A DNA stretch of 38,058 nt, from positions 1 to 38,058 of IMG/VR virus record IMGVR_UViG_3300003702_000003; one strand, given 5' to 3'. Made by a program: the position numbers and the translations under genes. Positions 4,679 to 30,417 of this stretch are shown here, one piece after another; the stretch's first letter is position 1, and every line of letters begins with the position of its first letter. The notes under the pieces were generated by a model. That model had not been told where the DNA came from. It saw only the letters and a list, made by a program, of their open reading frames with translations, and did not search any database. This stretch comes from a virus.

Positions 4679-4679
4679 T

Positions 4680-15281: not shown

Positions 15282-15420
15282 CCCGTGGCGGGTCTGGCAC
15301 CCAGGCATAGCTGCAAACCGAGCAATAGAATGACCGCTGGTCCCCTGTGATGATCACGTCGATGCCCCTGGACTCGTGACACTTGGGGCACTCAGGGACG
15401 GGCGGCAGGACGGGAGTCAT
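15274..15420 (-). CDS. Small zinc-ribbon peptide
   Basis: 48 aa with two CxxC knuckles (CPKC at 11-14, CSVC at 33-36) spaced as in a zinc ribbon, with YAWVPDPP after the second. A CAGGAGAT ribosome site lies 7 bases upstream of the ATG. Last gene of the leftward methyltransferase cluster. Its start lies within the end of the longer C5 methyltransferase frame, and its stop overlaps the 15159-15281 gene tail to tail. Partner unknown. Confidence 0.65.
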   Translation of the reverse strand: MTPVLPPVPECPKCHESRGIDVIITGDQRSFYCSVCSYAWVPDPPRVT

Positions 15421-16423: not shown

Positions 16424-17687
16424 GTCGATTCATTCCCTGTCGTGTGGTCTTCGCCACGAGCCTAAAGCCTTCGCCAATGGCCAATGCCAGCGACATGGCG
16501 CCCAAGTCAACAGAAACGCCGCGAACGACCGGATTCCCAACCATGGCGAAGACGCGGCCGTTCGGTCGCAAGACTCGACTGCTCTCCCTCCACATCTCGC
16601 CGTAGTCCGCCTGAAAACGTTGGACTACGTCACTTGACTGTCTCCGTCCTCCCGTTAGCGACCGGTCGAGGACCTTCGGATCAGCTCCCAACCATTTCAG
16701 ACTAAGCATCTGATACTCTGCATAGGGAATGGATCCGACATAGGGAGGATGGGTGACGATGGCATCGACCGAGCCTCGGCTCAGTGGCATGTTCGATGCC
16801 GACCCAAGTATCACGCTAGCTCGCTCCAGATCTGCTGCCACCGAGACCAAGGAACCCACCATCTGACACACGCGATTCAACGCATTAAAGAACGCCGGTC
16901 CCGGAGCGGGTCGTGAAGGGGCAGCCTTGTCGAACATCACGTTGGGATACCCGGAGTGAGCCCGGCTCGACTTCCTCAGGATATCGCTGAACGCCACGAC
17001 TGCTACACGTCTGAGCCGATCGTCCGCTATACGTCCGACCGCGTGGTCGATAGTCAATAGTTGCTGCAGGACCCTTGGCTCGAACCACTTGACATACCAC
17101 TCGTCAGTCGATCTCGGGTCTCCGGCCACAGCGTCGCTCAGCAAGTTGTCTTGGACTTGACCTCCGAACAAGGGCAGGTCGTCCTGTGGCATCAGGTAAG
17201 ATAACTCGTCACGGAGCGCCCCTGCGAGCGATGTGAGTTGGACAGGTGGGATCGGTGTAGTCTTGACCTTCGAGATCAATACCGCGACCGGGTTAAGGTC
17301 GATTCCGATTGCCCTGCGGCCGAGCAACACTGTTTCTAGAAGGGTCGTGCCAGAGCCACAGAACGGATCAAGGACAATTTCGCCAGGTTCTGTCAACAGC
17401 GATACGGTTCTTGAAGCGATTTGAGGGATAAACTTCCCTGAGTACCTGTGGATATTGTGGGTAAGCTGCCGGGTGTCGGCATCCTGGTAATCCCAAGACT
17501 CATCAGACACCGCTTCGGACAAGCCCACGTCCGCCCACGCGGCCATCTTCGCCAGCAGATGGCGCGTCTCGGCTTCATGCCCCTGCATCGCTGCGAGGTA
17601 GCCAGCCCGCTGCGACTGCACTTCTGCAAGAATCCCGGCTACCGACCGCCGTCCGTTGGTCTCCTGAACGTCTGCATCGCTGCCCAT
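16368..17687 (-). CDS. Beta-class DNA methyltransferase (N4-cytosine or N6-adenine)
   Basis: 439 aa. The SAM-binding motif DPFCGSGTT is at 107-115, followed by GIDLNP (acidic residue D130). The catalytic motif THPPY is at 312-316. An HNIHRYSGKFIPQ block at 77-89 resembles the HxIHxYPAKF segment of type II-like N4 enzymes. Motif I comes before motif IV. The long spacer with helices near 200-300 is the likely recognition region. Probable role: marking phage DNA against host restriction. Start ATG at 17687, adjacent to the DUF1064 gene stop; the C5 frame overlaps its 3' end. Confidence 0.82.
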   Translation of the reverse strand: MGSDADVQETNGRRSVAGILAEVQSQRAGYLAAMQGHEAETRHLLAKMAAWADVGLSEAVSDESWDYQDADTRQLTHNIHRYSGKFIPQIASRTVSLLTEPGEIVLDPFCGSGTTLLETVLLGRRAIGIDLNPVAVLISKVKTTPIPPVQLTSLAGALRDELSYLMPQDDLPLFGGQVQDNLLSDAVAGDPRSTDEWYVKWFEPRVLQQLLTIDHAVGRIADDRLRRVAVVAFSDILRKSSRAHSGYPNVMFDKAAPSRPAPGPAFFNALNRVCQMVGSLVSVAADLERASVILGSASNMPLSRGSVDAIVTHPPYVGSIPYAEYQMLSLKWLGADPKVLDRSLTGGRRQSSDVVQRFQADYGEMWRESSRVLRPNGRVFAMVGNPVVRGVSVDLGAMSLALAIGEGFRLVAKTTRQGMNRRANKMGTEELLFFRKQSG

Positions 17688-18549: not shown

Positions 18550-18933
18550 ATGCCAGTCATCAGCACGGGAAAATATCTCAAACGTGAATCCGTCAGCGCC
18601 GAGGGTGAAGTCCACACGGTCGTTAAGTGCGTCGAGGAGGAGATCAATTCCGCAGACGGCGGGTCGGAAACGAAGTGGATTCTGTACCTGTCGGATCTGA
18701 AACCGCTCATCATGAACGCCACGAACATCCGCCGTGCGGTCGCCGCGTTCTCGGGGGACTCCGAGACCGACAACTGGCCGGGGAAGAAAATCGTGGTCTA
18801 TGACGACGATTCCATCGAGTTTGGCGGCAAGGTCGTCGGCGGCGTGCGCCTGCGGGCCGTGCCCACGAAGGCCAAGTCCAAGTCCAAGTCCAAGGCCACC
18901 AAGCCGACAGACGTGGACGAGATCCCCTTCTAG
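18550..18933 (+). CDS. SSB-like single-stranded DNA-binding protein
   Basis: 127 aa, start after GAGGAGG. The last residues DVDEIPF are the acidic, Phe-ended tail by which SSB proteins recruit partners, preceded by a flexible Lys/Ser linker (KAKSKSKSKATKPT). The body (LSDLKPLIMNATNIRRAVAAFSGDSETDNWPGKKIVVYDDDSIEFGG) fits a small beta-barrel family common in phages. First gene of the early right operon and followed at once by a terminator-like hairpin, consistent with high expression. I cannot confirm a canonical OB fold. Confidence 0.68.
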   Translation: MPVISTGKYLKRESVSAEGEVHTVVKCVEEEINSADGGSETKWILYLSDLKPLIMNATNIRRAVAAFSGDSETDNWPGKKIVVYDDDSIEFGGKVVGGVRLRAVPTKAKSKSKSKATKPTDVDEIPF

Positions 18934-18947
18934 GTCGTTCCCGTCCT

Positions 18948-18986
18948 GGGATCGGTTGTGCTGCCCAGCATGGCCGGTCCCTTTTT
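18948..18986 (+). terminator. Terminator/attenuator after the SSB-like gene
   Basis: 18948-18955 pairs with 18974-18981 (8 bp, one wobble), and an inner stem TGCTG/CAGCA is followed by TTTTT at 18982-18986. It sits between the first and second early genes, so it should let the SSB-like protein be made in excess of the enzymes behind it. Confidence 0.7.
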
Positions 18987-19009
18987 CCTGAAGGCCAGAG
19001 GAGAGACGC

Positions 19010-19687
19010 ATGGCTGCGATCCACTTTGATCCCGAGACGCATGTCTATACGACCGACTATGGCACAGAAGTCCCCTCCGTCACGCAACGCATCAGGCGGG
19101 CGGGCCTGCTTGGGCCAGCCGTTCAGTTCTACTCCGCTGAGAGCGCAGATCTGGGGACGGCCATTCATCTTGCCTGTGAACACCGCGACCAGGGCCGAGA
19201 CGTGGCGGCGTTCCTCAGGGGCGAACACGGAGGGTATCTGACCAGTTATATCAAGTGGTGCGACGTGATGGAGCCCGTCTGGGCCTCTATCGAAACACCC
19301 CAGTACTCCCCGCGCTACCAGACGGCTGGAACCCCAGACCGGGTGGGGACGATCAATGGACGCCCTGTTGTCCTCGACTTGAAGAGTGGGAGTGGTGGCA
19401 AAGCCAGTTGGCACGGCGTACAACTGGCGCTCTATTCTTTGATTCAAGACAGCGATATTCCCCCCCAAGAGCGCCGTCGCATTGCCCTCTATCTTCGCGC
19501 CAACGGCCGAATGGCCCAGAGCGTCGAGTTCAGTTCACCCTACGACTACACCCAGGCGCTCGCATTGATCGCCAATCAAGAGGAGACACCAGATGCCCCA
19601 GATCACGACATCACCCCCCCCCGCGACACAACAGATGATGACGATGGACCTCCGTCAGCGACCGGGACTGGAAAAGCAAGCGACTGA
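19010..19687 (+). CDS. RecB-like PD-(D/E)XK exonuclease
   Basis: 225 aa, start after GAGGAGAG. GTAIHLACEH (49-57) is the first conserved His block, GTPDRV (107-112) and VVLDLKSG (120-127) supply the catalytic Asp and D-x-K, and the QLALY motif (138-142) follows. This is the RecB/Cas4-like nuclease layout used in phage recombination and end processing. The C-terminal 40 residues are acidic and disordered. It overlaps the next gene by 95 bases. Confidence 0.78.
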   Translation: MAAIHFDPETHVYTTDYGTEVPSVTQRIRRAGLLGPAVQFYSAESADLGTAIHLACEHRDQGRDVAAFLRGEHGGYLTSYIKWCDVMEPVWASIETPQYSPRYQTAGTPDRVGTINGRPVVLDLKSGSGGKASWHGVQLALYSLIQDSDIPPQERRRIALYLRANGRMAQSVEFSSPYDYTQALALIANQEETPDAPDHDITPPRDTTDDDDGPPSATGTGKASD

Positions 19688-20309
19688 TCTCTTGGCACCG
19701 GCTGATGCCATGCTCGTGACATCCGAGAGCGAATCGTTCGCCGCCAGTCTGTATCTGGAGCGCGTGCAGAAATTGAGACGCTGGATACGCTCCATTTACA
19801 CCGACGCGAAGCAGCCGCTCGCCGTGGCGAAGAAGACCCTGGACACGCAGGAGCGGGCGCTGCTGGACCCCATCAAGCACGTAGAAAAACAGATTATGGG
19901 CCGCATTCTTGCGTTCACCACGGCCCAGGCGGATCGCGAGTCGCAGCGCGTTGCCGCCGAGGTCGATCAGGGTCTCAACGCTGAGACGATCATCCCGGTT
20001 GCTGCGTCCCCGCCTCCTGCGCCGACCGTGGTGCCGGGGATGCAGCGGCGGTCCACGTACAGCGCCACGGTGACAGACATGGAGGCACTGGTGCTGGCTG
20101 TTGCCGGTCAGATTCTCTGCGACAGGCCGGGATCGACAAAAGTCACACAGCGGTGGCTCATCCAGGTCTGCCGCCCGTCTCCGCAAGCCTCACTGGGGCT
20201 CCTGACGGCGTCTGCCCCGGCCTTGAATGCCCTCGCACGGGCCTTGAAGCATGATCTGCGCGTGCCCGGGACGACGCTCTCGGAGACCACGACGCTCGTC
20301 TCGGCGTGA
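19593..20309 (+). CDS. Recombination-module accessory protein (Gam-like pattern)
   Basis: 238 aa. Start chosen for AGGAG 8 bases upstream. A long coiled-coil helix at about 30-115 (ESFAASLYLERVQKLRRWIRSIYTDAK...) is followed by a Pro-rich linker and a C-terminal domain RRSTYSATVTDMEALVLAVAGQ. This two-part design recurs in phage proteins placed next to exonucleases and SSBs, sometimes compared with the host-nuclease inhibitor Gam. The comparison is from layout only. Located between the exonuclease and the origin. Confidence 0.6.
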   Translation: MPQITTSPPPATQQMMTMDLRQRPGLEKQATDLLAPADAMLVTSESESFAASLYLERVQKLRRWIRSIYTDAKQPLAVAKKTLDTQERALLDPIKHVEKQIMGRILAFTTAQADRESQRVAAEVDQGLNAETIIPVAASPPPAPTVVPGMQRRSTYSATVTDMEALVLAVAGQILCDRPGSTKVTQRWLIQVCRPSPQASLGLLTASAPALNALARALKHDLRVPGTTLSETTTLVSA

Positions 20310-20329
20310 CACAGAAACGCCCGTTCGAC

Positions 20330-20415
20330 TGCGTCCGCTGCGTCCGCATCGTCCGTAGCGGTCTACACACGCTCAAACACGCTAAAAAACACGCTAGAAC
20401 ACGCTACAACACGCA
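20330..20415 (+). repeat. Iteron-type candidate replication origin
   Basis: Three 9-bp direct repeats of TGCGTCCGC (20330-20338, 20339-20347, 20348-20356, the last diverged) are followed by five ACACGCT/A heptamers at 20367, 20377, 20389, 20399 and 20409, spaced 10, 12, 10 and 10 bases so that they face one side of the helix. An A-run lies between copies 2 and 3. The array lies directly before the primase-helicase gene, where iteron origins are usually found. The function is inferred. Confidence 0.65.
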
Positions 20416-20427
20416 TAGGCCCACCGC

Positions 20428-22470
20428 ATGACATTTGAGGATCTCCTCTCTCGCTTCGACACTGTTCGCAGCACGGGGTCAGGGTATAGCGCCAAATGCC
20501 CCGTCCATGAAGACCGCGTTTCCAGTCTGAGCATCTCTCGCGGCCAGGAGGATCGGGTGCTCATCCACTGTCATGCGGGTTGCCCGCTCGATGACATCTT
20601 GCTCGACCGCAACCTCACGCTCTCGGACCTGTTTCCCGATGACCCGGTCCCGGTGCCCACCCCGGCTCCAGTTCTGACCTCTGCGTCTACACAGATCCTG
20701 TACGACTACCACGACCTCGATGGCACGCTCCTGCACCAAGTCGTCAAAGGCGCTGGCAAGCAATTCCGGCAGCGCCACCCGACCCCGGACGGCTGGGTCT
20801 GGAAAGCGTCAGGTCGCCGCGTGCCATATCGCTGGCCTGAACTGGTGGGTCAGGACGAGGTGTTTATCTGTGAGGGCGAGAAGGACGTAGATTGTCTCTT
20901 CGACCACGGTCTCACGGCAACGTGCAACCTGGGGGGTGCGAGCAAGTGGCGAGCCGAGGAGACCGCCGCGCTCCTGGATCTGCACCCGGCCCAGGTCTAC
21001 GTCATCCCAGATAACGATACGCCCGGGCACAAACACGCCGACAGCGTGGTCGAGCAACTCACTACCGCAGGGCTCACGGCTTTCCTGGTGCCGCTCCCTG
21101 GACTGCCCGCCCACGGCGATACGAGCGACTGGTTTGCGGCCGGGGGCACGGCTGCGTCTCTCAGGGCGCTGGCTGAGCACCCCGAGACGGTCCTTCCCCC
21201 GGCCATCGAGGCGGTGGACATGCTGACCGCCCCGCAAGCGTTCACTCGGGAGGGGGAAGACGCCTATCGCCTGGATTACCCCACGCTGGGGGTGTCTTTC
21301 GCGGTGGCCCATCTCCACCGCCATCATGACGACCTGAAGTGTGAGCTGACTGTGAGCACCACGTTGCCGCAGGCCCGCACGGTCAATGGGACGCTCCTGT
21401 GGACCGCGACCAATCTGAGCGCGGCCAGGACGCGGGCGGGGCTTGCCAAAGGTCTCGCCGCACGGTCTGGCGAGGCGAAGTGGGACTGGCTGGGCGCACT
21501 TGAAACCCTCTCGGTGCGGGTCGCCCGTGCCGAGGCCGAGGGGTCCAGTGAGATCAAACCGCTCGCAGATTATGCCCTCCCGACAGACGATCCGGCCTGG
21601 ACGATTGTCGGTCTGCCGATCCTCAAGGCGCACCCCACTATTCTGTTTGGTGACGGCGCGTCAGGGAAGTCCATGCTGGCGCTTTTCATCGCGGGCACGA
21701 TCGCTCGTGACGTGCCGGTCCTTTTCTGTGACTTCGAATTCGAGGCTGAGGCCCATCGTGACCGGTTGCAACGGCTGTTCGGGACGGGGATGCCACGAGA
21801 CCTCCACTACGTGCGATGCTCGCAGCCGCTCGTCAACGAGGTGGGCAGATTACAGCGATGGATTCTTGAGCATGACTGTCGATTCTGCATCGTCGATTCG
21901 GTGGCCTTCAGCGTCGATGGCCCACCGGAATCGGCTGAAGTGGCGGCGGGGTTCTTCCGATCACTGCGTAGTTTGAACGTGGGGTCCCTGAGTATTGCCC
22001 ACACGACCAAAGGGGAAAACTCTGAGCAAAAGCCCTTCGGGAGCACCTTTTTTAGCAATGGCGCTCGCAGCGTCTGGCACGTCAAGCGCAACGACGACGA
22101 AGGGGCCGGGTCGTCCACCGTCGAGTTGGCCTTATCCCATCGCAAGTCGAACACGGGCCAGCGACTGTCCACGCGGGGGATCAAGTTGGGGTTCACGGGC
22201 AACATGACCACGGTCGCGCCATTCGACCTCGCGGGGAGCGCCGACCTGGCGACCTCGCTGCCGATCTGGCAGCGGGTCAAATCCCTGGTGTCCACGAGGC
22301 CGATGTCTCTTGCAGATCTTGCCAGTGAACTGGACGCTAAACCGCAGTCGATTGCTCGGATTGTGCGCCGGATGGAGCTATTCAGCAGGGACGCTGACGA
22401 CAACATCTGCCTCGCCACGGCCACGCTGACCGCGTCAGCACCCACTGAGACCGACGAGGCGTGGTTCTAA
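20428..22470 (+). CDS. Primase-helicase (Zn-finger/TOPRIM primase fused to RecA-like ATPase)
   Basis: 680 aa. Zinc-binding primase domain: C24-x2-H27 and C48-x3-C52. TOPRIM: EGE at 149-151 and DND at 195-197. RecA-like helicase/RepA domain: Walker A GDGASGKS (408-415), Walker B FCIVD (486-490) and IAHTTKG as motif 3. The C-terminal 80 residues contain a winged-helix-like segment (LADLASELDAKPQSIARIVRRM). It would unwind DNA and lay primers at the origin directly upstream. There is no DNA polymerase gene, so the host enzyme must be used. Confidence 0.85.
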   Translation: MTFEDLLSRFDTVRSTGSGYSAKCPVHEDRVSSLSISRGQEDRVLIHCHAGCPLDDILLDRNLTLSDLFPDDPVPVPTPAPVLTSASTQILYDYHDLDGTLLHQVVKGAGKQFRQRHPTPDGWVWKASGRRVPYRWPELVGQDEVFICEGEKDVDCLFDHGLTATCNLGGASKWRAEETAALLDLHPAQVYVIPDNDTPGHKHADSVVEQLTTAGLTAFLVPLPGLPAHGDTSDWFAAGGTAASLRALAEHPETVLPPAIEAVDMLTAPQAFTREGEDAYRLDYPTLGVSFAVAHLHRHHDDLKCELTVSTTLPQARTVNGTLLWTATNLSAARTRAGLAKGLAARSGEAKWDWLGALETLSVRVARAEAEGSSEIKPLADYALPTDDPAWTIVGLPILKAHPTILFGDGASGKSMLALFIAGTIARDVPVLFCDFEFEAEAHRDRLQRLFGTGMPRDLHYVRCSQPLVNEVGRLQRWILEHDCRFCIVDSVAFSVDGPPESAEVAAGFFRSLRSLNVGSLSIAHTTKGENSEQKPFGSTFFSNGARSVWHVKRNDDEGAGSSTVELALSHRKSNTGQRLSTRGIKLGFTGNMTTVAPFDLAGSADLATSLPIWQRVKSLVSTRPMSLADLASELDAKPQSIARIVRRMELFSRDADDNICLATATLTASAPTETDEAWF

Positions 22471-22495
22471 CGCACGATAGACACAGGAGGGGACC

Positions 22496-22675
22496 ATGGC
22501 TGACACCGAATGCGACCGATGCGCTGGAGTGACCACGACGGAGTCTCTGGTGGAAGTGACGCCCGCCACATGGCGTGATCCACCGGAACATCTCGTCATC
22601 TGCGAGGCGTGCCAGGCACAGGACGAGATCGGCCGAGAACCCGCCTGCGATGCCCCGTCGTGGCCGTATTCCTAA
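22496..22675 (+). CDS. Small zinc-finger protein
   Basis: 59 aa with CDRC (6-9) and CEAC (37-40) knuckles and an acidic tail. Strong AGGAGGGG site. Follows the primase by 25 bases, so it is probably co-expressed. Function unknown. Confidence 0.6.
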   Translation: MADTECDRCAGVTTTESLVEVTPATWRDPPEHLVICEACQAQDEIGREPACDAPSWPYS

Positions 22676-22718
22676 TACATTGCTGGTAGGTATACAATGA
22701 TACGAGCGTGGAACCTAC

Positions 22719-22763
22719 GTATGGAAGTCGGCAATTCTGGAATGGAAATGCTGACTTCCGTAC
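22719..22763 (+). promoter_or_regulatory. 14-bp inverted repeat upstream of the RHH gene
   Basis: 22719-22732 pairs with 22750-22763 (14 bp with two G.U pairs) around a 17-base loop. There is no T run, so it is more likely a leader hairpin or an operator than a terminator. It begins 67 bases before the RHH regulator ATG. A promoter-like TATACAAT lies just ahead at 22691-22698, without a clear -35. Confidence 0.5.
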
Positions 22764-22785
22764 CACACAGGAAAGGTCATGAGAT

Positions 22786-23130
22786 ATGGGTATCGACGTA
22801 GCACCGATCAACGTGGGCTCGATCAGTGTGTTTCTTTCGTCGGCGATGGCGTCCCGGGTCGCCGCCTATGCCACTCTGCACGGCCAGGACGTGACCGACG
22901 CTGTGGAGGCGTTGCTGGTCATCGCACTGGCTCGTATCGGCGCGTCATCTGCGGGGGGACAAAAGCGGTGGAAAGGCGTCTCTCCCGAGGCCCGATCCGA
23001 CGCGGCACGACACGCGGTCACGGCGCGATGGGAGCAGTATCGTTTAAGCCGAGCAGGGCTTGATGACCAGGCGGACAAGGGGCGGACAACCCCCCGGACA
23101 GATGCCGTTGATGACGTAAAAAGTCAATGA
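22786..23130 (+). CDS. Ribbon-helix-helix-like regulator
   Basis: 114 aa, start after GGAAAGG. Residues 12-47 (SISVFLSSAMASRVAAYATLHGQDVTDAVEALLVIALARIG) show a strand followed by two helices, as in RHH/CopG DNA-binding proteins. KGVSPEARSDAARHAVTARW (about 63-82) is a second block found in other phage proteins. The tail is acidic. It may control the hairpin region in front of it or the repeats behind it. Confidence 0.6.
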   Translation: MGIDVAPINVGSISVFLSSAMASRVAAYATLHGQDVTDAVEALLVIALARIGASSAGGQKRWKGVSPEARSDAARHAVTARWEQYRLSRAGLDDQADKGRTTPRTDAVDDVKSQ

Positions 23131-23230
23131 AACCGGGGGCGGACAACTCTTTCTGGTCGTTTTTTTGACGTGATGGATAACCCCTGATAATGGAAGGGTT
23201 TACGCTGTTTTCACCCCCCGGACGGACAAC
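23072..23230 (+). repeat. CGGACAAC direct repeats around the RHH gene end
   Basis: CGGACAA followed by C or G occurs at 23072, 23083, 23140 and 23223. The copies straddle the end of the RHH gene and the 143-base gap after it. They may be operators or recognition sites; no function is proven. Confidence 0.5.
23131..23166 (+). terminator. Weak terminator-like element after the RHH gene
   Basis: ACCGG near 23132 can pair with CTGGT at 23153-23157, and seven T follow at 23160-23166. The stem is short and the loop long, so the call is tentative. Confidence 0.3.
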
Positions 23231-23258
23231 CTCCTCCCCTTTAGGGGGAGTCGGTTGT
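23226..23258 (+). other. Imperfect leader hairpin before the 71-aa gene
   Basis: ACAAC (23226-23230) pairs with GTTGT (23254-23258), and CTCCCC (23234-23239) with GGGGAG (23245-23250), across a 3x3 internal loop. It sits 15 bases before the start codon, with the GGAGGAGAGG ribosome site between. Possibly a translation-control hairpin. Confidence 0.45.
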
Positions 23259-23273
23259 CGGAGGAGAGGTAGG

Positions 23274-23489
23274 ATGCGATTCACGCCCATGTTCGGTGCA
23301 CTGGTACCAGATCCGGCACTTCATCTCCTCTGGTCTCTTGAGGAGCGTGGGGTTGATATTCGACTCGACGGTGACGACACGCTGGTCATGAAACCGATGT
23401 CGAAGATCCCAGAACCTGATCGGGTCTTGATCCGCCGATACAAAGCCCATCTCTTGTTACTCGTGCGCGGATGCAACGATGTGGCATGA
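23274..23489 (+). CDS. Small protein resembling a TubC-type N-terminal domain
   Basis: 71 aa. The pattern 'LLWSLEERGVDIRLDGDDTLVMKPMSKIPEPDRVLIRRYKAHLLLLV' (about 14-61) matches the short helix-strand-helix domain of TubC docking modules, which also occurs alone in phages and mobile elements next to primases. Protein-protein contact is the likely role. Very good GGAGGAGAGG site. Overlaps the next gene by 11 bases. Confidence 0.6.
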   Translation: MRFTPMFGALVPDPALHLLWSLEERGVDIRLDGDDTLVMKPMSKIPEPDRVLIRRYKAHLLLLVRGCNDVA

Positions 23490-23940
23490 ACTCGACGTAG
23501 GCCCGCCAGAGCCAGACTGGGGGCAGCGCCATGACGGGCCGCGTCCTGAGCCAGAACCAGAACCGGACGTGACGTTTCACGTCGCTGAGCCAGACCCAGA
23601 TCCCGACCCGGAACCGGACGTGACGTTTCGCGTCACTGAGCCAGAGCCCGACCCAGAGCCAGACTGGGATCGCCTCCGGGGTGACGAGCCACAGGTGGAC
23701 GAGCCACCAGTGGACGAGCCGGACCCAGACCCGGCCCCACGGGGCGTCCGTCACACGACATCGACCCGGCACGTCTTTAGCGACCCGGCCATCGACACAC
23801 CGGGTGGTCTGATCCTCCGTCCCAGGCAACGGCTCGGATCGCACCGCGGCGATCTTGAGACCATCGAGCTGGGTGCGTATTACAAGGAGCCAAAGTGGGT
23901 GCTGGTGATGACGCGTCGGAACAACGCCCATTGGAGGTAG
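23479..23940 (+). CDS. Acidic Asp/Glu/Pro-repeat protein
   Basis: 153 aa. Residues 8-92 are low-complexity and rich in Asp, Glu and Pro, with two copies of EPEPDVTFxVxEP and a DEPxVDEP pair. The C-terminal 60 residues are mixed, with GAYYKEPKWVLVMTRRNNAHW. The N-terminal half is strongly negative, as in DNA-mimic or highly disordered proteins. No family recognised. The DNA repeat includes a palindromic GACGTGA-N4-TCACGTC. Overlaps the previous gene. Confidence 0.65.
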   Translation: MWHELDVGPPEPDWGQRHDGPRPEPEPEPDVTFHVAEPDPDPDPEPDVTFRVTEPEPDPEPDWDRLRGDEPQVDEPPVDEPDPDPAPRGVRHTTSTRHVFSDPAIDTPGGLILRPRQRLGSHRGDLETIELGAYYKEPKWVLVMTRRNNAHWR

Positions 23941-24036
23941 GTCACATGACCTACTAAAGCAACACCCCATCACCCGTCGGGATGTGTCCCGCTATCCAAA
24001 GTCCCGACCAGTCCCGACAGTCCCGAGAGGCACATC

Positions 24037-24387
24037 ATGAATCGATACTTGTTCGACCTGCTGAACCCCGCAGCCGTAGACGACCCCTCGCCGCACAGGA
24101 CGTATGTGTCGGGCGCGACCCGTGAGACCAGAGCTACATCGGACGCGGCACATCGGTCGCTCAGTGGGCGGGCTGGCACGATGCGACGAGCGGTCTACGA
24201 GATCATTCAGCGGGACGGCCCACTGGATGACAAGGCGATTCAGGCCGGCCTGGGGATGGCGGGCAGTACGGAGCGGCCGAGACGCCGAGAGCTACAGCAG
24301 GCGGGCCTGATCGAGTCGGCTCCAGGCACGGGTCGTACGGTGCGGTGGCGGGTCACGGCCGACTGGCCCGGCGCCAAGACTGGCTAA
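24037..24387 (+). CDS. Winged-helix DNA-binding protein
   Basis: 116 aa. TMRRAVYEIIQRDGPLDDKAIQAGLGM...STERPRRRELQQAGLIESAPGTGRTVRWRVT (about 48-107) is a standard winged helix as found in many phage replication-region proteins. The N-terminal 45 residues are probably disordered. Last gene of the early right operon. Its TAA (24385-24387) overlaps the stop of the convergent membrane-protein gene. Confidence 0.72.
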   Translation: MNRYLFDLLNPAAVDDPSPHRTYVSGATRETRATSDAAHRSLSGRAGTMRRAVYEIIQRDGPLDDKAIQAGLGMAGSTERPRRRELQQAGLIESAPGTGRTVRWRVTADWPGAKTG

Positions 24388-24539
24388 GGGGGCTGCCGGT
24401 GCGCTTGCACGTCGAAGCGCATCAGCAGGCCAGACACATAGCCGCAGAGTACGGCAATCGCGGTGGTGATCATCGAGGGCCACCACAGCCCGAGCACCAG
24501 CCCGAGCATAGCCAGGGGCACCGCAGCGAGCACGCTCAT
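24384..24539 (-). CDS. Small membrane protein
   Basis: 51 aa with two hydrophobic helices (VLAAVPLAMLGLVLGLWW and MITTAIAVLCGYVSGLLM) and a short polar tail. Start by ATGA overlap with the upstream zinc protein. Last gene of the leftward small-gene array. Could be a superinfection-exclusion or other inner-membrane factor; nothing in the sequence decides. Confidence 0.6.
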   Translation of the reverse strand: MSVLAAVPLAMLGLVLGLWWPSMITTAIAVLCGYVSGLLMRFDVQAHRQPP

Positions 24540-24685
24540 GGTGACGTGTCCTCCAGCCGGACGAGCACCCTCACCTCGATGCGTTCGCACTCGCAGCCAT
24601 GCGAGTCCCCAATCGGCGACCGACAGTCTGGGCAGAAGGTCGGTGGCTCGTCGTCGTCCGGTGGATCGATAGGGGGTTCAGGCAT
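24536..24685 (-). CDS. Small zinc-binding protein
   Basis: 49 aa. An acidic Pro-rich start (PEPPIDPPDDDEPP) precedes FCPDC and a later HGCEC, a plausible zinc site. GGAGGACAACA before ATG 24685 fixes the start; longer upstream frames lack a site. ATGA-coupled to the membrane protein. Confidence 0.55.
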   Translation of the reverse strand: MPEPPIDPPDDDEPPTFCPDCRSPIGDSHGCECERIEVRVLVRLEDTSP

Positions 24686-24698
24686 TGTTGTCCTCCAA

Positions 24699-24902
24699 TT
24701 AGGTGGCATGGGATGACGGGCGGCGCGTAATGTCTGGCAGGACCCCGTCGCGTAATGCCCGGAGCGCCTCGATCTTCGCCACGATGATCTGTTCACGGGA
24801 TTCTTCCTCAGCGAGTTCGAGTTCATAGGTCGAGATGGTCGCGGCGATGTCGGCCAGCATGGATTTTACACTGCGTCGTGGTCGTGGTCGTGGTGCTGTC
24901 AT
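24699..24902 (-). CDS. Small coiled-coil protein with basic start
   Basis: 67 aa. An Arg/Pro-rich N-terminus (APRPRPRRS) is followed by a long heptad-like helix (MLADIAATISTYELELAEEESREQIIVAKIEALRALRD). Start by ATGA overlap with the preceding gene. Possibly a dimeric nucleic-acid-binding protein; no family recognised. Confidence 0.55.
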   Translation of the reverse strand: MTAPRPRPRRSVKSMLADIAATISTYELELAEEESREQIIVAKIEALRALRDGVLPDITRRPSSHAT

Positions 24903-25252
24903 GTCTTCTCCTGTGCCTTCCTCGCAACTCTGTCGCAGGCATCGATATCATGCGATAGCGAAATATCGGCAATATCCGGATCGTCGGGGTCTCCGATCCA
25001 CAGAGCGCAGTGCGGACAGTGCAGGTCGGGGTAGCCTGTGATCGCACTGGCTAGTCCCCACTCGTCGTTCTCAAGCCAGCGACACCCCGCTGGAAGATCG
25101 TCAATATTCACCGTCTTCGGGTCGAGTCCATCTGGGCCTGCAATCGCCCAGAGGGTGGAGGCGAGCGGATCAAGATCGTAGATCCGCTCCCCGCTGCGTG
25201 TGCGTAGATCAGTCGTCTCAGCCTGACTCGCTCGCCTGGTCGTGTCTGTCAT
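24899..25252 (-). CDS. Hypothetical acidic protein with CPHC knuckle
   Basis: 117 aa from ATG 25252, chosen because AGGAG lies 7 bases upstream (a TTG at 25267 is weaker). Acidic; LHCPHCALWIGDPDDPDIADISLSHDIDAC (about 78-107) could bind a metal through Cys and His. Last residues KAQEKT. Stop coupled to the coiled-coil gene. Confidence 0.6.
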   Translation of the reverse strand: MTDTTRRASQAETTDLRTRSGERIYDLDPLASTLWAIAGPDGLDPKTVNIDDLPAGCRWLENDEWGLASAITGYPDLHCPHCALWIGDPDDPDIADISLSHDIDACDRVARKAQEKT

Positions 25253-25253
25253 G

Positions 25254-25385
25254 TCATCTCCTGTCAAGTCGGGACCGGTGTGTTAGGACGCACGCTGTGT
25301 GTACCGGCGCTGGAGTGCCTCGCGTCGGCGTGTCGCCTCGGCCCGTTGCGCGTCCTCGCGGGCCTGCGCCGACTGCCCGCTTCAT
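25254..25385 (-). CDS. Doubtful 43-aa frame between coupled genes
   Basis: An ATG overlapping the upstream TGA (ATGA) opens 43 codons to a stop just before the next ribosome site. The product is Arg/Gly/Thr/Pro-rich and looks like an out-of-frame translation. The alternative in this stretch is the 32-codon helical extension of the 25382-25615 frame. I cannot decide between them. Confidence 0.2.
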   Translation of the reverse strand: MKRAVGAGPRGRATGRGDTPTRGTPAPVHTACVLTHRSRLDRR

Positions 25386-25615
25386 GCGGGGGTATCCTCG
25401 TCTGTAATGCGACCGACAGAACGGAGCGTCACGGTCAGGCCGTCACCCTCAATGCCCGCGATCAGCGCCTCAAGAAAACGCAACCCCACCGTCAGCCCCT
25501 TGCCGAACCACGGTGTATCAGAAGACACATGCTCCGACAACCACGCACGAGCCTCTGCCGTTTCCGGCGTCACGAGCGAGATGCTCTCATCGACGAACAC
25601 GCGAAAGTCAGTCAT
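25382..25615 (-). CDS. Hypothetical small acidic protein
   Basis: 77 aa, start after AGGAGGCAGAC. Beta-like FRVFVDESISLVTPETAEARAWLSEHV followed by a second half GLTVGLRFLEALIAGIEGDGLTVTLRSVG. No family recognised. The leader has two overlapping CTCGAACT motifs shared with other genes of this array. After its TGA the same frame stays open for 32 codons to 25283 with helix-forming Glu/Arg/Ala/Gln composition. Confidence 0.65.
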   Translation of the reverse strand: MTDFRVFVDESISLVTPETAEARAWLSEHVSSDTPWFGKGLTVGLRFLEALIAGIEGDGLTVTLRSVGRITDEDTPA

Positions 25616-25691
25616 GTCTGCCTCCTGGTTGTGAGTTCGAGTTCGAGTGTGTTACCACCTGTGTACGTGCCCGGTCGACCCGCGGGTGCCA

Positions 25692-25982
25692 TCATGCGTG
25701 GTCTCCCTCGACCACGAGGGTGTAGATGCCGTCTTCGTATTCGGCGGCCAGGGCCTCTTCGGGGATCGCGAAATGGTCAGTCACGCCCTCGCTGACCCCC
25801 AGGCAGTGCAACGTGTAGTGGGACGTGATTGTTTCGGCAAGATGCAGTGCGCGCTCCTCGTCGGTCAGTGCTATCCGGTCAGTATGCGAGAGGACGCGCT
25901 CACGCACGATGATCACCCCGTGGCCGAGATAGGTGCGCTCGGCGCCGTTCAGGGGGTTGAGCTGGAACGTCAGTCCGGTCAT
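25692..25982 (-). CDS. Hypothetical 96-aa protein
   Basis: 96 aa from ATG 25982 with a strong ACAGGAGGGC site 4-5 bases upstream. The frame is also open upstream into the zinc-ribbon gene at 26237, giving a 181-aa fusion as sequenced, but the ribosome site argues for this internal start. Acidic; GAERTYLGHGVIIVRERVL then a helix TDEERALHLAETITSHYTLHCLG. No family recognised. Confidence 0.6.
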   Translation of the reverse strand: MTGLTFQLNPLNGAERTYLGHGVIIVRERVLSHTDRIALTDEERALHLAETITSHYTLHCLGVSEGVTDHFAIPEEALAAEYEDGIYTLVVEGDHA

Positions 25983-26237
25983 GTGCCCTCCTGTGTATGC
26001 GGTCTGTGTGATGTGTCCTTGTCCCTCGCCCCCCCCGTGCAGGTAGCAGCCCCGGCACTTCCAAAGGCGTGGTAGGACAGCCATGTGCCGGGGTGCGGGG
26101 CAATAATAGAGCCGGAGCCAGACGGCGCTGCCGCACCCGGCGCACCTCCGCCCCCAGCCCCACTGTTTGCTCGCATAGTGTGTCTGGAACGCAGCCAGCC
26201 TCGCGCGACGTTGGGCCGTGTGCTGATCGAAGTTCAT
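25979..26237 (-). CDS. Zinc-ribbon protein, probably frameshifted at a C8/G8 run
   Basis: From ATG 26237: a basic helix (HTAQRRARLAAFQTHYASKQW), then CAGCGSAVWLRLYYC (33-47) and CRGC (62-65), a four-Cys ribbon. As sequenced, the frame runs on to 25692. At a run of eight C on the plus strand (26029-26036) a shift of one base instead gives a stop at 25979-25981 that overlaps the ATG of the next gene as ATGA, the coupling used throughout this array. Sequencing error, recoding and true fusion are all possible. Confidence 0.5.
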
Positions 26238-26608
26238 AATACCGATCCCCCGAATGCCGATCCTCCGATACGCAGCCCGCGGTCGAATCGAGCGGCCTCG
26301 CCACGGCCGTGTTTCTCGTCTTGGGCCAGTTGGCGTTGGGACTCATCCGGCCACGCCATACGGCGCGTGCCGTTCCGGTAGAGGTTGCGGCCCTTGATCC
26401 GAAACGTCCGACCGCCAGCGGTTTGCAGGGTGAACGTATGCTGCTGGCGGTCAGCGCCGTAGGAGTCTTTCATGATCTGCGCGTGGATGGTTTCGTTTTC
26501 GACAAAGACGGGCCGACGATAACTCCCTTCAAAGACGGCCCGCTCGAACATGACATGGTCACCGACAACGGCGTCCCCGGTGCAATCGATGGGATATTGA
26601 GCGGTCAT
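26234..26608 (-). CDS. Hypothetical conserved phage protein
   Basis: 124 aa, ATGA-coupled at both ends. GDAVVGDHVMFERAVFEG, then DSYGADRQQHTFTLQ, IKGRNLYRNGTRRM and DEKHGRGEAARF form a pattern I associate with small phage proteins of unknown role; the first block looks like an SH3/KOW-type barrel. The C-terminal 15 residues are Gly/Ser-rich. Confidence 0.6.
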   Translation of the reverse strand: MTAQYPIDCTGDAVVGDHVMFERAVFEGSYRRPVFVENETIHAQIMKDSYGADRQQHTFTLQTAGGRTFRIKGRNLYRNGTRRMAWPDESQRQLAQDEKHGRGEAARFDRGLRIGGSAFGGSVL

Positions 26609-26850
26609 GATGTGGCCTCGGTGTCACAGTTCACGAGTACCACGGCGGCGGCTTTCAGCGTCTCAAGGTCTTGTTCGGTGAGCGGGCTCCTATGGTAGAT
26701 GTCACAGACGATCCCGGTGGCTTTCTCGGCTCGCGTATCATCGGGCGCAGTCAGTGCGAGTGTGAGCCCGTACAGGACCGCCAGCGCATCGTTTGGTTCG
26801 TTCAGAAAACCAAAGTCGGCTGTCGAGGGTGTATACGTGGGTGTAGGCAT
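26605..26850 (-). CDS. Hypothetical small acidic helical protein
   Basis: 81 aa with a CAGGAGAAAACC site. Thr/Pro-rich start, then helices (NEPNDALAVLYGLTLALTAPDDTRAEKATGIVCDIYH and EQDLETLKAAAVVLVN). Its stop overlaps the next start (ATGA). No family recognised. Confidence 0.6.
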   Translation of the reverse strand: MPTPTYTPSTADFGFLNEPNDALAVLYGLTLALTAPDDTRAEKATGIVCDIYHRSPLTEQDLETLKAAAVVLVNCDTEATS

Positions 26851-26899
26851 GTGGTTTTCTCCTGTTGTGGGTATACGTGCTGTTTCGGTTTGTAGTCAA

Positions 26900-27343
26900 T
26901 TACAGCCATTCATGCGTCAACGCATAGCCGCCGTCTCTATGGCGATGCGTGGTCCGGTCGCGGTCGCCGTTACTGTGATCATTCGACCGGCACCGGTCCC
27001 CAAGACAGGCAAACCCGTCCGGCCAGAGCGTGGCGCTCAGGGTGTAGACCAACTGAAACCCCATATCCATGCCGCTCCCGCTCATCACCACGCCGTCTCC
27101 GCGGGACGAAAAGGGCCGCTGTTTCGCCTGCCGCGTCCCCAGTGCCGTGGCGACGTGCCAGTTCGGGTGGAGATGGTACGTCCGGCCGTCGTCATCCGTA
27201 CGAGCGATAACGACTCGGATGTGGTGCGTCATCCCACTGCTGGAACAGTGATCCAGGATGGTATACACCGTGTCGCCGGGGTGCAACAGCTCGCGGAGAT
27301 GATCGATAGAGTCCCTCTGGGCTTGTTTTTGGGCTCGTGTCAT
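26900..27343 (-). CDS. Conserved phage protein of unknown function (SGM...GMDMGF pattern)
   Basis: 147 aa; start at ATG 27343 with GGAGGGACAAC. The string LRELLHPGDTVYTILDHCSSSGMTHHIRVVI, GSGMDMGFQLVYTLSATLWPDGFACLGDRC, NDHSNGDRDRT and HRDGGYALTHEWL recurs in phages of many hosts. Conserved Cys/His/Asp residues could be catalytic or metal-binding, but no function is known to me. A CCCGAACT leader motif precedes the ribosome site. Confidence 0.68.
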   Translation of the reverse strand: MTRAQKQAQRDSIDHLRELLHPGDTVYTILDHCSSSGMTHHIRVVIARTDDDGRTYHLHPNWHVATALGTRQAKQRPFSSRGDGVVMSGSGMDMGFQLVYTLSATLWPDGFACLGDRCRSNDHSNGDRDRTTHRHRDGGYALTHEWL

Positions 27344-27374
27344 GTTGTCCCTCCAGGTGAGTTCGGGTTTAGGT

Positions 27375-27650
27375 TTAGTTGTCAATACGCTTAACGGCCG
27401 CTCGCAGCGTGGCGACGGGATATCCGCTCTGTGCTGCAACATGCGCCAATGTCCGGCAATGGACGAGATATGAATACGGCCATGATCGGCTGGGCGTCCG
27501 AATCGAGCCGCAGCAGGTGAGCGCCTCGGTGGGATACCAGCGACCCCCGGTGTCGAATGTCCCCTCAGGGTCGGCGTGTCTATCGCGCAAGTCGAGGTAC
27601 CGCCGCGCAGCGGTGCGGAGTTTTTGCGTCAAGCGCACAGTTTTCGTCAT
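27375..27650 (-). CDS. Hypothetical basic protein
   Basis: 91 aa, start after TGGAGGAGACGATCAAT. A basic helix (VRLTQKLRTAARRYLDLRDRHADPEG) is followed by Cys/Trp/Tyr-containing sequence and a helix-turn-helix-like end (LAHVAAQSGYPVATLRAAVKRID). DNA binding is possible. The leader carries two CGAAC motifs and, further out, the 42-bp hairpin repeat copy B. Confidence 0.55.
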   Translation of the reverse strand: MTKTVRLTQKLRTAARRYLDLRDRHADPEGTFDTGGRWYPTEALTCCGSIRTPSRSWPYSYLVHCRTLAHVAAQSGYPVATLRAAVKRIDN

Positions 27651-27691
27651 ATTGATCGTCTCCTCCAGGTTCGTGTTCGGTGTCGAGCGTG

Positions 27692-27733
27692 TCCAGCGAT
27701 ATCCACCGACACGGGGCCGGTGGACACCGCAAG
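27692..27733. repeat. 42-bp leader hairpin repeat, copy B
   Basis: 37 of 42 bases match copy A at 28673-28714. The internal inverted repeat TCCACCG/CGGTGGA is a perfect 7-bp stem with a 9-base loop. It lies upstream of the gene starting at 27650 on the minus strand. Confidence 0.8.
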
Positions 27734-27771
27734 GCCAGCGACGTTATCTGTGCGAGTCTGGTTCGAGTGCT

Positions 27772-27960
27772 CTACCGTTGACGCCCCTTGCGGATGGCGT
27801 CCCGGTGCGAGCTGTTTATGGCGTAACCTAGTACTGTATAGACTGGCGATCCCCATGCTGTGCCGTAATCGCGCCACGCCTCAACCTTGCCGTTTTGGAA
27901 CTTGACAATCACCCAATCTTTCCCCACACGGCGTTTAGCCGTTTTCACAGTAGGCGTCAT
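27772..27960 (-). CDS. Hypothetical small basic protein
   Basis: 62 aa, ATGA-coupled to the gene upstream. Beta-like RRVGKDWVIVKFQNGKVEAWRDYG then VYTVLGYAINSSHRDAIRKGRQR. No family recognised; the composition suits a small nucleic-acid-binding domain. Confidence 0.58.
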   Translation of the reverse strand: MTPTVKTAKRRVGKDWVIVKFQNGKVEAWRDYGTAWGSPVYTVLGYAINSSHRDAIRKGRQR

Positions 27961-28424
27961 GATGTACACCCGTTTGGTACCGTTGCGTGGCGAGCCGCGA
28001 AGACGCTTAGACCGTTCTCAAGGCAAAACGGGATACGGTCTGCTACGCTCAGATCCGCGTAACAGGCGGCACAGATAATCTCACCGTGTCGCACAGCGTA
28101 ACTCGGTCGCCAGACGTACGAGTCTGCGACAGTTCGCATCGCCTGCCCGCATTCGCAGACGTACCACTCGTCGGACCACTCGACGGCGTACCCCGCACGG
28201 TCAAGCAGGTCCGCGAACCTGGATCGGAACGTCGAGACTGTTGGCCAGTGTTCACCGGCCGCGCGTTCGGCGTCCGTGCCATGGCGCGTCTCATTGTTCC
28301 AATCCGCAAGATACACCCCGTGTCGGGGCGTGGCGTACCCGGGTTCGGCGTACCCGTCGGCGTAGTCAATGTTCCACGTTCCGTCAGATCTCACGTCGTC
28401 CAAAATCCCGCGTAGCGTTCTCAT
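27957..28424 (-). CDS. Hypothetical protein with zinc-ribbon
   Basis: 155 aa; ATG 28424 follows CAGGGGGTACGC and the shared CTCGAACC motif. The N-terminal half (LRGILDDVRSDGTWNIDYADGYAEPGY) is acidic and aromatic. YVCECGQAM and IICAACYADL (about 89-127) supply C-x-C and C-x2-C pairs for a zinc ribbon. Function unknown. Confidence 0.6.
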   Translation of the reverse strand: MRTLRGILDDVRSDGTWNIDYADGYAEPGYATPRHGVYLADWNNETRHGTDAERAAGEHWPTVSTFRSRFADLLDRAGYAVEWSDEWYVCECGQAMRTVADSYVWRPSYAVRHGEIICAACYADLSVADRIPFCLENGLSVFAARHATVPNGCTS

Positions 28425-28455
28425 GCGTACCCCCTGGTTCGAGTTTTTGTCTCGC

Positions 28456-28650
28456 TCATCGGCCCCAGTTCTCGCCACGATCAGCCGCCACTATGGCTGC
28501 GGCCCGCTTGCACTCCCAACAATCAACGCCGTTTTCTGATTGCCACTCCACAGTGCGGCGCAATGCCGCCAACGAACGCACGCCCGCGTCAGACTTGACG
28601 TGGTGGCGAATGCCCTCCGGTAACGTGTCCCACCATGTTTTGCGTTTCAT
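28456..28650 (-). CDS. Hypothetical small protein
   Basis: 64 aa, start after AAGGAGGCAACG. Basic and aromatic (KRKTWWDTLPEGIRHHV) with a CWEC pair near 44-47 and a helical end. No family recognised. Preceded by the shared CTCGAACC motif and hairpin repeat copy A. Confidence 0.55.
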   Translation of the reverse strand: MKRKTWWDTLPEGIRHHVKSDAGVRSLAALRRTVEWQSENGVDCWECKRAAAIVAADRGENWGR

Positions 28651-28672
28651 CGTTGCCTCCTTGGTTCGAGTA

Positions 28673-28714
28673 TCCAGCGATATCAACCGACACGGGTCCG
28701 GCTGATACCGCAAG
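28673..28714. repeat. 42-bp leader hairpin repeat, copy A
   Basis: Same element, stem TCAACCG/CGGCTGA with one A:C mismatch. The third stem pair changes from C-G in copy B to A-T here, and an extra outer A-T pair forms, so pairing is largely kept while the sequence drifts. It lies upstream of the gene starting at 28650. Confidence 0.8.
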
Positions 28715-28726
28715 ACAATCGAGCCG

Positions 28727-28978
28727 CTAAACGCGCCGAAACGTGTCTTCGCTGCCGCTGATTTTTCGGCCAGTCCTGTCGATCCTGACAATCACGCGGT
28801 CATTTGGCGTGAGACGCATCCCGATCACGTCCCCATATCGCGCTCCACGCATCCATAGGTCCGTACCAGGATGCAACTCCACGCGGTCGCCGACGGTGTA
28901 CCCGTTCCCGTCGTATCCGTGGCATGGTGCGATCCCTCTGTCCGCGGCTTCGCTTGGTGTGTATATGATTTTGGCCAT
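28727..28978 (-). CDS. Small SH3-like domain protein
   Basis: 83 aa, start after AAGGAGAACCAGATC. From residue 27 (GYTVGDRVELHPGTDLWMRGARYGDVIGMRLTPNDRVIVRID) the alternating strands and GDRVELH start match small SH3-barrel proteins seen in phages. Partner unknown. The 19 bases ending in its ATG are identical to those of the 29416 gene. Confidence 0.6.
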   Translation of the reverse strand: MAKIIYTPSEAADRGIAPCHGYDGNGYTVGDRVELHPGTDLWMRGARYGDVIGMRLTPNDRVIVRIDRTGRKISGSEDTFRRV

Positions 28979-28993
28979 GATCTGGTTCTCCTT

Positions 28994-29416
28994 CTAATTC
29001 TGTGTCCAGTATCCGTAGACGCAGCGCGTCCCGTTCCGACTCGGATCGTGCGTATCGTGGATGATCCCGTCAACCATGCAGGTGTAATGCTTGCTGAGCC
29101 GCACGATGATGCGACCAGATGGCAGTTCGGCCGGCCGCAAGTGGACGGTGCAACCCGATCCGATCTGCATTGTGGGTACCCACGTCCAGCCCAGATCCTG
29201 CAGGACTGTTCGCATGGTGGTCCCGTAGATGCCACCCCGGGCACTCGAACGGCTCCGTCGGCGCGCCGTGACACGTTCGCGTGCCGCTGCCGCGTTGATG
29301 ATGTGGTACGCAGCTTGGTACGGCAGTTGGGCGGCTACGGCTATCGCTCGACACGCGCAGTCTCCCGCGTTGCCGCGATACCCTGCTGCCTGTCTGCCGC
29401 CGTCGGTGTAGATCAT
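28994..29416 (-). CDS. Papain-like cysteine peptidase/amidase-type protein
   Basis: 140 aa. GDCACRAIAVA (catalytic Cys20 in a helix start), SKHYTCMVDG (His110) and IHDTHDPS (Asp121 or Asp124) occur in the order and spacing of papain-fold enzymes, as in a family common in phage early regions. The substrate is unknown; cleavage of a host protein, ubiquitin-like tag or amide is possible. Start after AAGGAGAACCAGATC, next to the CCCGAACC leader motif. No signal peptide, so it acts in the cytoplasm. Confidence 0.65.
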   Translation of the reverse strand: MIYTDGGRQAAGYRGNAGDCACRAIAVAAQLPYQAAYHIINAAAARERVTARRRSRSSARGGIYGTTMRTVLQDLGWTWVPTMQIGSGCTVHLRPAELPSGRIIVRLSKHYTCMVDGIIHDTHDPSRNGTRCVYGYWTQN

Positions 29417-29438
29417 GATCTGGTTCTCCTTCTGGGTG

Positions 29439-29454
29439 GGTTCGGGTGCGTGCC
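29439..29454. repeat. 16-bp direct repeat, copy 1 (GGTTCGGGTGCGTGCC)
   Basis: Identical 16 bases recur at 29949-29964. This copy lies in the leader of the 29416 gene, the other in the 683-base gene-free region. Confidence 0.8.
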
Positions 29455-29512
29455 TACCTTGTTGTTTTGGAGTTTTCTGTCTTGCGGGCTGCCGGTTATG
29501 ATCTAGCCAGTG

Positions 29513-29791
29513 CTACAGCTCTGTGATCATCTTGTCTAAGGCGATAACGTCAAGGCCGCTATCGTTCCAGGACACTCCGTCCGGTGTTTCGAGGGTGATA
29601 CGGTACGCGGCCCGGCGTGAAGCCCAAGTGTCGTAGTTGCGCGGGTCAGCCCGGTCGTGCAACAGGTCACAGAAGCGTGCATACGTGCCGGCTTCTTTCG
29701 CGCTTTCGTACAGCTCCTCGTCATTGCCGATCCACAGTGAGACGTTCCAAGTCTCATAGTTGGCCCATCCGTTATACTTGGTGCCTGTCAT
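29513..29791 (-). CDS. DUF7249-like small protein
   Basis: 92 aa from ATG 29791 (AAAGG about 10 bases upstream; GTG at 29797 possible). KYNGWANYETWNVSLWIGNDEELY at the start is the signature of a widespread phage/plasmid protein family of unknown role. Trp-rich, soluble, acidic. First gene of the leftward array. Confidence 0.72.
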   Translation of the reverse strand: MTGTKYNGWANYETWNVSLWIGNDEELYESAKEAGTYARFCDLLHDRADPRNYDTWASRRAAYRITLETPDGVSWNDSGLDVIALDKMITEL

Positions 29792-29948
29792 GGTCACTGC
29801 CTTTCTTGGCCGTCATCGACCCTTGATATCCTTAAGAGTAGCATACAAGCCTGGCATATACAATAGGAATATGGAGATTGGTGGCGATTATTCGCGCCTG
29901 CTACGTAATAGGTCATCCGGCCGCATTAGTTGGGCGTGTGCCTGTACT

Positions 29949-30189: not shown

Positions 30190-30417
30190 TTGCCTTGGGG
30201 GGGTGGCACCTACTGGGTCTACTGGGTCTACTGGGTCTACTGGAGGCAGCGACCCACAACGGTGCAGATTGGGGCGAAATCTCGTCCTGGTGCAACGAAA
30301 TCTCGTCCTGGTGCAACGAAATGTCGTCCGAATCTGAGAAAAGCGGGAAAACGGCGAGAACGTCTTATAGATGAGCGAGTTAGGAGACTTTTCGGAGAAG
30401 GTGTCGCCGAAAAGTAG
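30190..30417 (+). CDS. Doubtful 75-aa frame with tandem repeats
   Basis: The frame reads YWV x3, then KSRPGAT x2, then a basic end (NLRKAGKRRERLIDERVRRLFGEG). It has no good ribosome site and an odd composition. The region may instead be non-coding repeats used in packaging. Confidence 0.25.
   Translation: MPWGGGTYWVYWVYWVYWRQRPTTVQIGAKSRPGATKSRPGATKCRPNLRKAGKRRERLIDERVRRLFGEGVAEK
30211..30243 (+). repeat. 9-bp tandem repeat (TACTGGGTC, 3.7 units)
   Basis: Perfect copies at 30211, 30220 and 30229, partial at 30238. Confidence 0.9.
30275..30330 (+). repeat. 21-bp tandem repeat (2.7 units)
   Basis: Units at 30275-30295 and 30296-30316 are identical; 30317-30330 is a partial third copy with one change. 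Begins with CGAAATCTCGTCC. Confidence 0.9.
30387..30415. other. 9-bp inverted repeat upstream of terS
   Basis: ACTTTTCGG (30387-30395) and CCGAAAAGT (30407-30415) form a perfect stem with an 11-base loop. No T run on either side, so an operator or a protein-binding hairpin is more likely than a terminator. Confidence 0.55.

Follow-up and report, generated by a model that had tools for sequence, protein, structure and literature searches.

A variable array of small phage genes joined in part by a family of structured linkers

How phages swap single small genes without breaking the expression of the operon that holds them is mostly unexplained outside T4-type phages. The question arises at positions 24,384–29,791 of the IMG/VR virus record IMGVR_UViG_3300003702_000003 (38,058 bases, 61% GC), which was analysed over its whole length and is hereafter called the window. 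Here a podovirus-like phage carries a block of small leftward genes, mostly of unknown function, which an original prediction, made from the sequence, had singled out as the best candidate for an undescribed system. That claim was not supported: the genes do not travel together, and nearly each relative has a different set. In kind, the array is an accessory region of the sort typical of phages and does not form one new system; the new element is a family of structured linkers located within it. Taken as a whole, the locus is likely to be a fast-changing, host-directed accessory operon, probably early, in which separate modules are joined partly by conserved linkers. A structured RNA linker common to unrelated genes, with clean gain and loss at its copies, makes the question of single-gene exchange testable in a small genome.

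An array of small leftward genes

The array consists of 17 leftward genes, lettered q to a in transcription order (Table 1). Genes were called with a purpose-written caller, using 60 dinucleotide shuffles of the block as control. The caller places 15 leftward and no rightward genes in the block, covering 80% of it, whereas the shuffles yield 0.5 leftward genes on average and never more than 2. The array is thus real and, as had been predicted, lies opposite to and converges with the rightward replication operon (18,550–24,387). Its description needed some adjustment. Rather than about 16 genes of 49–155 amino acids, the present model has 17 with products of 43–155 amino acids, the exception being gene g, at 181 amino acids if both of its parts are read as one. 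The ATGA overlaps that were said to link the genes occur at 6 of the 16 junctions (m/l, i/h, h/g, f/e, d/c and b/a), and the remaining 10 are spacers, most with their own Shine–Dalgarno sequence.

Six genes (n, m, q, k, g and l) have a close enough relative for an estimate of the ratio of nonsynonymous to synonymous substitution (dN/dS), which lies between 0.11 and 0.31 and is only rough for k, g and l, where dS exceeds 1. On these values, the six genes are real and maintained by selection. A nucleotide search of the array region against phage records gave no match.

Turnover of the gene content

Anchoring on terminase identified 80 related loci (numbered with the prefix L), and the slot was compared between the window and the 13 related contigs with enough sequence. 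Together, these 14 contigs hold 129 array proteins in 91 families, of which 64 are singletons. Relatives in the 13 related arrays exist for 8 of the 17 window genes. Because almost every relative holds another set, we regard the array genes as independent modules in a variable slot. The synteny comparison called for by the original prediction shows a slot that is variable in content. Another branch (L008, L060, L009, L012, L007, L025, L026 and L014) is without the leftward array, and there rightward genes adjoin the terminase.

The prediction had also pointed to host takeover and anti-defence from the position of the block. In its favour, the L052 array contains a full-length ArdC-type antirestriction gene (7,603–8,451, minus strand; Pfam ArdcN, E = 1.3e-30; PHROG anti-restriction, E = 1.6e-76; PDB ArdC, E = 3e-57), and the L031 array a full-length relative of it (3,980–4,819, minus strand). 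ArdC counteracts a type I restriction system during conjugation (PMC7213743). Further matches in the relatives' arrays are to DNA methyltransferases, a Gp88 protein, DUF7227, DUF3846 and an ADP-ribosyltransferase domain. The slot is a rich, mostly uncharacterised pool for counter-defence gene searches, in which the relatives' ArdC can serve as a positive control.

A structured linker upstream of unrelated genes

A repeat search identified a 53-nucleotide repeat 5′ of the unrelated genes n and k, which is part of a 74-nucleotide stem-loop. The same stem-loop is found 5′ of n in L082 and 5′ of a different gene in L083. A covariance model built from these four copies recovered four divergent copies outside its training set, two in L013 (the second of them weak, E = 0.03) and one each in L060 and L008. 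When the 8 copies are aligned, 92% of the cells pair and 10 of the 26 pairs show changes on both sides, a level of covariation reached in none of 500 shuffles. The architecture is one of conserved outer arms around a variable inner stem, with the 3′ arm ending at the ribosome-binding site of the next gene. The original prediction had missed both window copies.

Inverted repeats may covary for DNA reasons, and a strand test was therefore applied. If the stem-loop acted at the DNA level only, whether as a palindrome bound by a protein or as a small mobile element of palindromic form, its inverted repeat and its location between unrelated genes would be expected, and the compensatory changes could arise from DNA-level constraint or template switching. 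The strand test argues otherwise. G–U cells outnumber A–C cells by 30 to 5 (10 to 4 by columns, which is not significant on its own), and the sense fold beats the antisense fold in all 8 copies by a margin of 5–15 kcal/mol (−35.1 versus −26.6 kcal/mol for copy 1), where the 8 copies represent about 4 independent groups and not eight independent tests. Moreover, the orientation of the stem-loop always matches that of the genes, and no target-site duplication or terminal signature was noticed at its copies. We therefore consider a role in DNA alone unlikely. With about 26 pairs, the stem has sufficient length for an RNase III processing site if the hairpin acts as RNA.

The family appears confined in its distribution. 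No Rfam family matches it, and pattern scans of IMG/VR place it in this phage group only, apart from chance matches (L137, L138 and L139). Among the whole records of 23 related contigs, copies occur only in that of L013, besides one short partial match (19 bits), and every copy in the near-complete window and L013 records lies within the array. A similar weak palindrome in L039, L040 and L044 was dismissed: it lies within the structural region, and its score in the covariance-model search is no better than chance.

Gene gain and loss at linkers

Blocks of homology end at linkers. Between the window and L082, homology begins at the stop codon that precedes the stem-loop, extends across gene n, breaks off in the short n/m linker and resumes there into m. 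At this point L082 has one additional gene, flanked by two versions of the n/m linker, whereas the window has a single linker and no such gene. A second case, from the other branch, involves L008, in which a gene sits between two identical 30-nucleotide linker copies, with an apparent 3′ stem-loop half ahead of the second. At the corresponding point, L060 carries the stem-loop with a single linker copy.

More generally, comparing the upstream regions of unrelated genes, 21 of 1,567 pairs align at a score of at least 16, as opposed to 0, 1 and 0 in three controls (coding or shuffled), part of the 21 being shared ends of uncalled upstream genes and not linkers. After these are removed, three linker types are left: the stem-loop, the GACACTCGAACC type and the CACACACACAACACGCA type.

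Array promoter and timing

The claim that the array is driven from one end is supported by a conserved promoter pattern at its head. The pattern TTGYAT-N16/17-TANNNT has one match in the whole window, at 29,863, directly upstream of the first gene and in the sense of the array. The same pattern occurs once each in L013, L082 (as TTGTAT-N16-TATAAT) and L083, every time at the array head and in array sense. As the pattern was picked after the sites had been seen, this evidence is suggestive. In five distant relatives (L050, L045, L053, L059 and L032), the leftward array continues into same-strand exonuclease, annealing-type or other recombination-type genes, which fits an early operon. Judged by this synteny and the promoter pattern, the array is most likely expressed early.

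Three relatives have operator-like imperfect palindromes of the GTGAGTAAGCGCTCAC type in the interval from the small terminase gene to the array promoter (L013, 8,840–9,277; L082, 1,372–1,725; L083, 2,238–2,600). Such palindromes are not obvious in the window.

How the array may work, and alternatives

We propose the following course of events. Host RNA polymerase would start near 29,863 and produce a single leftward mRNA, from which about 17 small proteins would be translated from closely spaced starts. The slot, bounded by the replication operon on one side and the terminase genes on the other, would be refilled with other small genes in each relative. At the DNA level, the linkers may offer short shared sequences at which a single gene is gained, lost or exchanged by recombination; at the RNA level, the hairpin would probably shield the mRNA or direct its processing, for instance as an RNase III site, so that each gene would work whatever its neighbour. 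Most likely, the array products would weaken host defences or reprogram the host.

Several observations weigh against this proposal. The stem-loop is present at only 2 of the 16 window junctions, and the rearrangements at linkers are few and are seen between assembled metagenome contigs. ArdC is present in just 2 of the 13 relatives, and profile searches of the 17 window array genes against known defence and anti-defence families gave no match. The head promoter pattern was searched for in L052 and not found.

The two roles of the linker could be combined in a single element, an expression-insulating RNA that doubles as a DNA joint for single-gene exchange and would be an integrase-free counterpart of integron cassettes. 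This idea is tentative, and we lean against it. The array resembles integron attC cassettes in its head promoter, its single-gene modules and its imperfect hairpins, whose arms are conserved and whose inner stem varies, and differs in that linkers are found at few junctions. An actual attC identity was rejected, as the GTTRRRY and RYYYAAC end boxes are absent from the eight linker copies; Pfam scans of the window genes showed no integrase family that would indicate an integron integrase (a tyrosine recombinase).

In T7, long and interrupted RNase III processing hairpins lie between the genes of the early operon. By analogy, the linkers may be compared to these long interrupted hairpins between operon genes, with the difference that the linker hairpins are one sequence family that moves between genes.

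Another known element is the PeSL (early promoter plus stem-loop) of the hyperplastic regions of T4-type phages (Arbiol et al. 2010 and Comeau et al. 2014, as described in PMC4503421 and PMC3950731). There, PeSLs are linked to modular shuffling, and PeSL-like motifs are mentioned in the archaeal virus HGTV-1. Here, too, conserved stem-loops lie between unrelated small genes of a variable region and at module breakpoints, and module exchange at the motif is seen in the homology-block ends and the two gain/loss cases, a small sample. If the linkers were promoter or terminator cassettes of this kind, this placement in a variable small-gene region and the tie to module exchange would follow. However, a scan for promoters of the sigma70 type predicted none at 28,656–28,729 or 27,675–27,748, and no terminator-like site was predicted on the array strand at either window copy, where the stem is followed not by a T run but by a ribosome-binding site. 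Since these two defining features, promoter and terminator, fail, we do not class the linker as a PeSL; it also differs in its unrelated host virus and in its architecture, in which the outer arms are conserved, the inner stem varies and the end coincides with the ribosome-binding site of the following gene. Promoter or terminator cassettes are accordingly quite improbable.

If the block formed one coherent system not yet described, such as an anti-defence complex of several proteins, its single direction, tight spacing and single promoter would be accounted for, and genes n, m and l do occur in the same order in L082. No other set of at least three genes recurs, however; the order of q, b and g is not preserved in L083, and 9 of the 17 genes are without a relative in the 13 related arrays, which makes one system very unlikely. 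A collection of unrelated late structural or lysis genes is scarcely credible, for although the last gene codes for a small membrane protein whose holin match falls below threshold, the structural genes (terL, portal, capsid and connectors) are located elsewhere in the window, and in distant relatives the array is co-directional with recombination genes.

The array of independent modules that we favour is similar to ORFan or host-takeover regions and anti-defence islands in being a cluster of small, mostly uncharacterised and fast-changing genes, with ArdC in the slot of relatives; it differs in that the window's own array has no recognised inhibitor.

Individual array genes

Profile searches of each protein identified two domain families of the DUF type, DUF7249 in gene q, as had been predicted, and DUF7699 in gene h, which had been missed; a search of the array genes against PADLOC and NCBIfam gave nothing convincing.

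Table 1 Features of the array, in transcription order of the genes
Feature	Position	Strand	Length (amino acids)	Description
Promoter	29835-29863	-		Putative, sigma70-like, TTGTAT-N17-TACTCT; single pattern match in the 38-kb window
Gene q	29513-29791	-	92	DUF7249; Pfam PF23907 E 1.6e-16, phrog_871; dN/dS 0.13 against L083
Gene p	28994-29416	-	140	Cysteine-peptidase-like; phrog_3754 E 2.3e-10
Gene o	28727-28978	-	83	phrog_5546 E 1.4e-11
Stem-loop linker copy 1	28656-28729	-		Between o and n, ends at n Shine–Dalgarno; covariance-model matches, covariation
Gene n	28456-28650	-	64	L082 homolog 95% identical, dN/dS 0.14
Short linker n/m	28425-28455	-		Two versions in L082, flanking extra gene
Gene m	27957-28424	-	155	Two cysteine pairs; phrog_35561 E 1.2e-14; L082 homolog, dN/dS 0.20
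Gene l	27772-27960	-	62	ATGA overlap with m; homolog in L082
Stem-loop linker copy 2	27675-27748	-		Upstream of k; covariance-model matches
Gene k	27375-27650	-	91	L052 homolog, dN/dS 0.11, dS saturated
Gene j	26900-27343	-	147	phrog_12365; homolog in Microbacterium phage Shocker
Gene i	26605-26850	-	81	Most widely shared array family: L032, L053 (two copies), L059, L071
Gene h	26234-26608	-	124	DUF7699; Pfam PF24766 E 1.4e-14
Gene g	25692-26237	-	181	Zinc-ribbon-like N-terminal part and 96-amino-acid part, in-frame fusion
Gene f	25382-25615	-	77	
Gene e	25254-25385	-	43	Weakest gene call; open reading frame with ATGA overlap
Gene d	24899-25252	-	117	
Gene c	24699-24902	-	67	
Gene b	24536-24685	-	49	Cysteine-rich PPxDPPxDxE protein close to array end
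Gene a	24384-24539	-	51	Small membrane-type protein, last gene

Gene q passes the curated Pfam cut-off for DUF7249 (61.5 bits against 27) and has homologs in 232 phage records, chiefly of cyanophages (tblastn). Its predicted structure is all-helical, and a comparison of the predicted fold with the PDB gave no match; a search of a limited literature collection for DUF7249 found no paper. Gene h likewise passes the DUF7699 cut-off (54.8 bits against 27), and no relative of it was found among phage records. A pattern scan of viral contigs for gene m revealed no relative.

For gene p, the predicted cysteine-peptidase likeness stands in its residues: C20, H110 and D121 are invariant across five homologs, in the Cys-His-Asp/Asn order of clan CA (papain-like). 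The predicted model (predicted local distance difference test score 73) yields weak PDB matches, staphopain first (E = 0.12, probability 0.63) and C39 peptidases too, and a sequence search against the PDB yields nothing. The reading as a cysteine peptidase is plausible but weak. Homologs occur in the jumbo phages Tunturi_5 and Phosso, and also in Mx1. Gene o is possibly SH3-like.

The 96-amino-acid part of gene g is a free-standing protein in L052 and L083 (dN/dS 0.31), and an internal start with a good Shine–Dalgarno sequence lies at 25,982, at the joint of the two parts; g may be a dual-start gene or a module fusion. Gene b has relatives in L013, L082 and L083, located at the end of the array or close to it. 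The Phage_holin_3_6 match of gene a is weak and under the cut-off (E = 0.0012). Facing the array at this end, convergent with it, is a possible winged-helix protein (24,037–24,387, plus strand; phrog_1123), with a similarly placed gene in L052, L082 and L013.

Genome setting

The window also encodes terL (terminase large subunit), portal, capsid, connector and primase/helicase genes. By terminase, the closest annotated phage is EBPR podovirus 1 (JF412294; 52%), and the terminase has weak relatives in bacterial genome bins, which are of mixed origin. EBPR podovirus 1 shares the order of the head genes and has small genes just ahead of its terminase genes; it differs in that these run rightward into the terminase genes, with no leftward array.

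Elsewhere in the window, two DNA methyltransferase genes (15,392–17,687, minus strand; C5-cytosine and N6/N4 types, by Pfam scan) adjoin a Holliday junction resolvase and possibly provide restriction protection. A possible GNAT acetyltransferase (3,615–4,007, plus strand; a Pfam match assigned by eye) lies amid the structural genes. Tandem 9-nucleotide and 21-nucleotide repeats (30,210–30,316) lie in the gap that separates the array from the small terminase gene, and words like these repeats are present in L082 and L083 in the C-terminal region of the small terminase.

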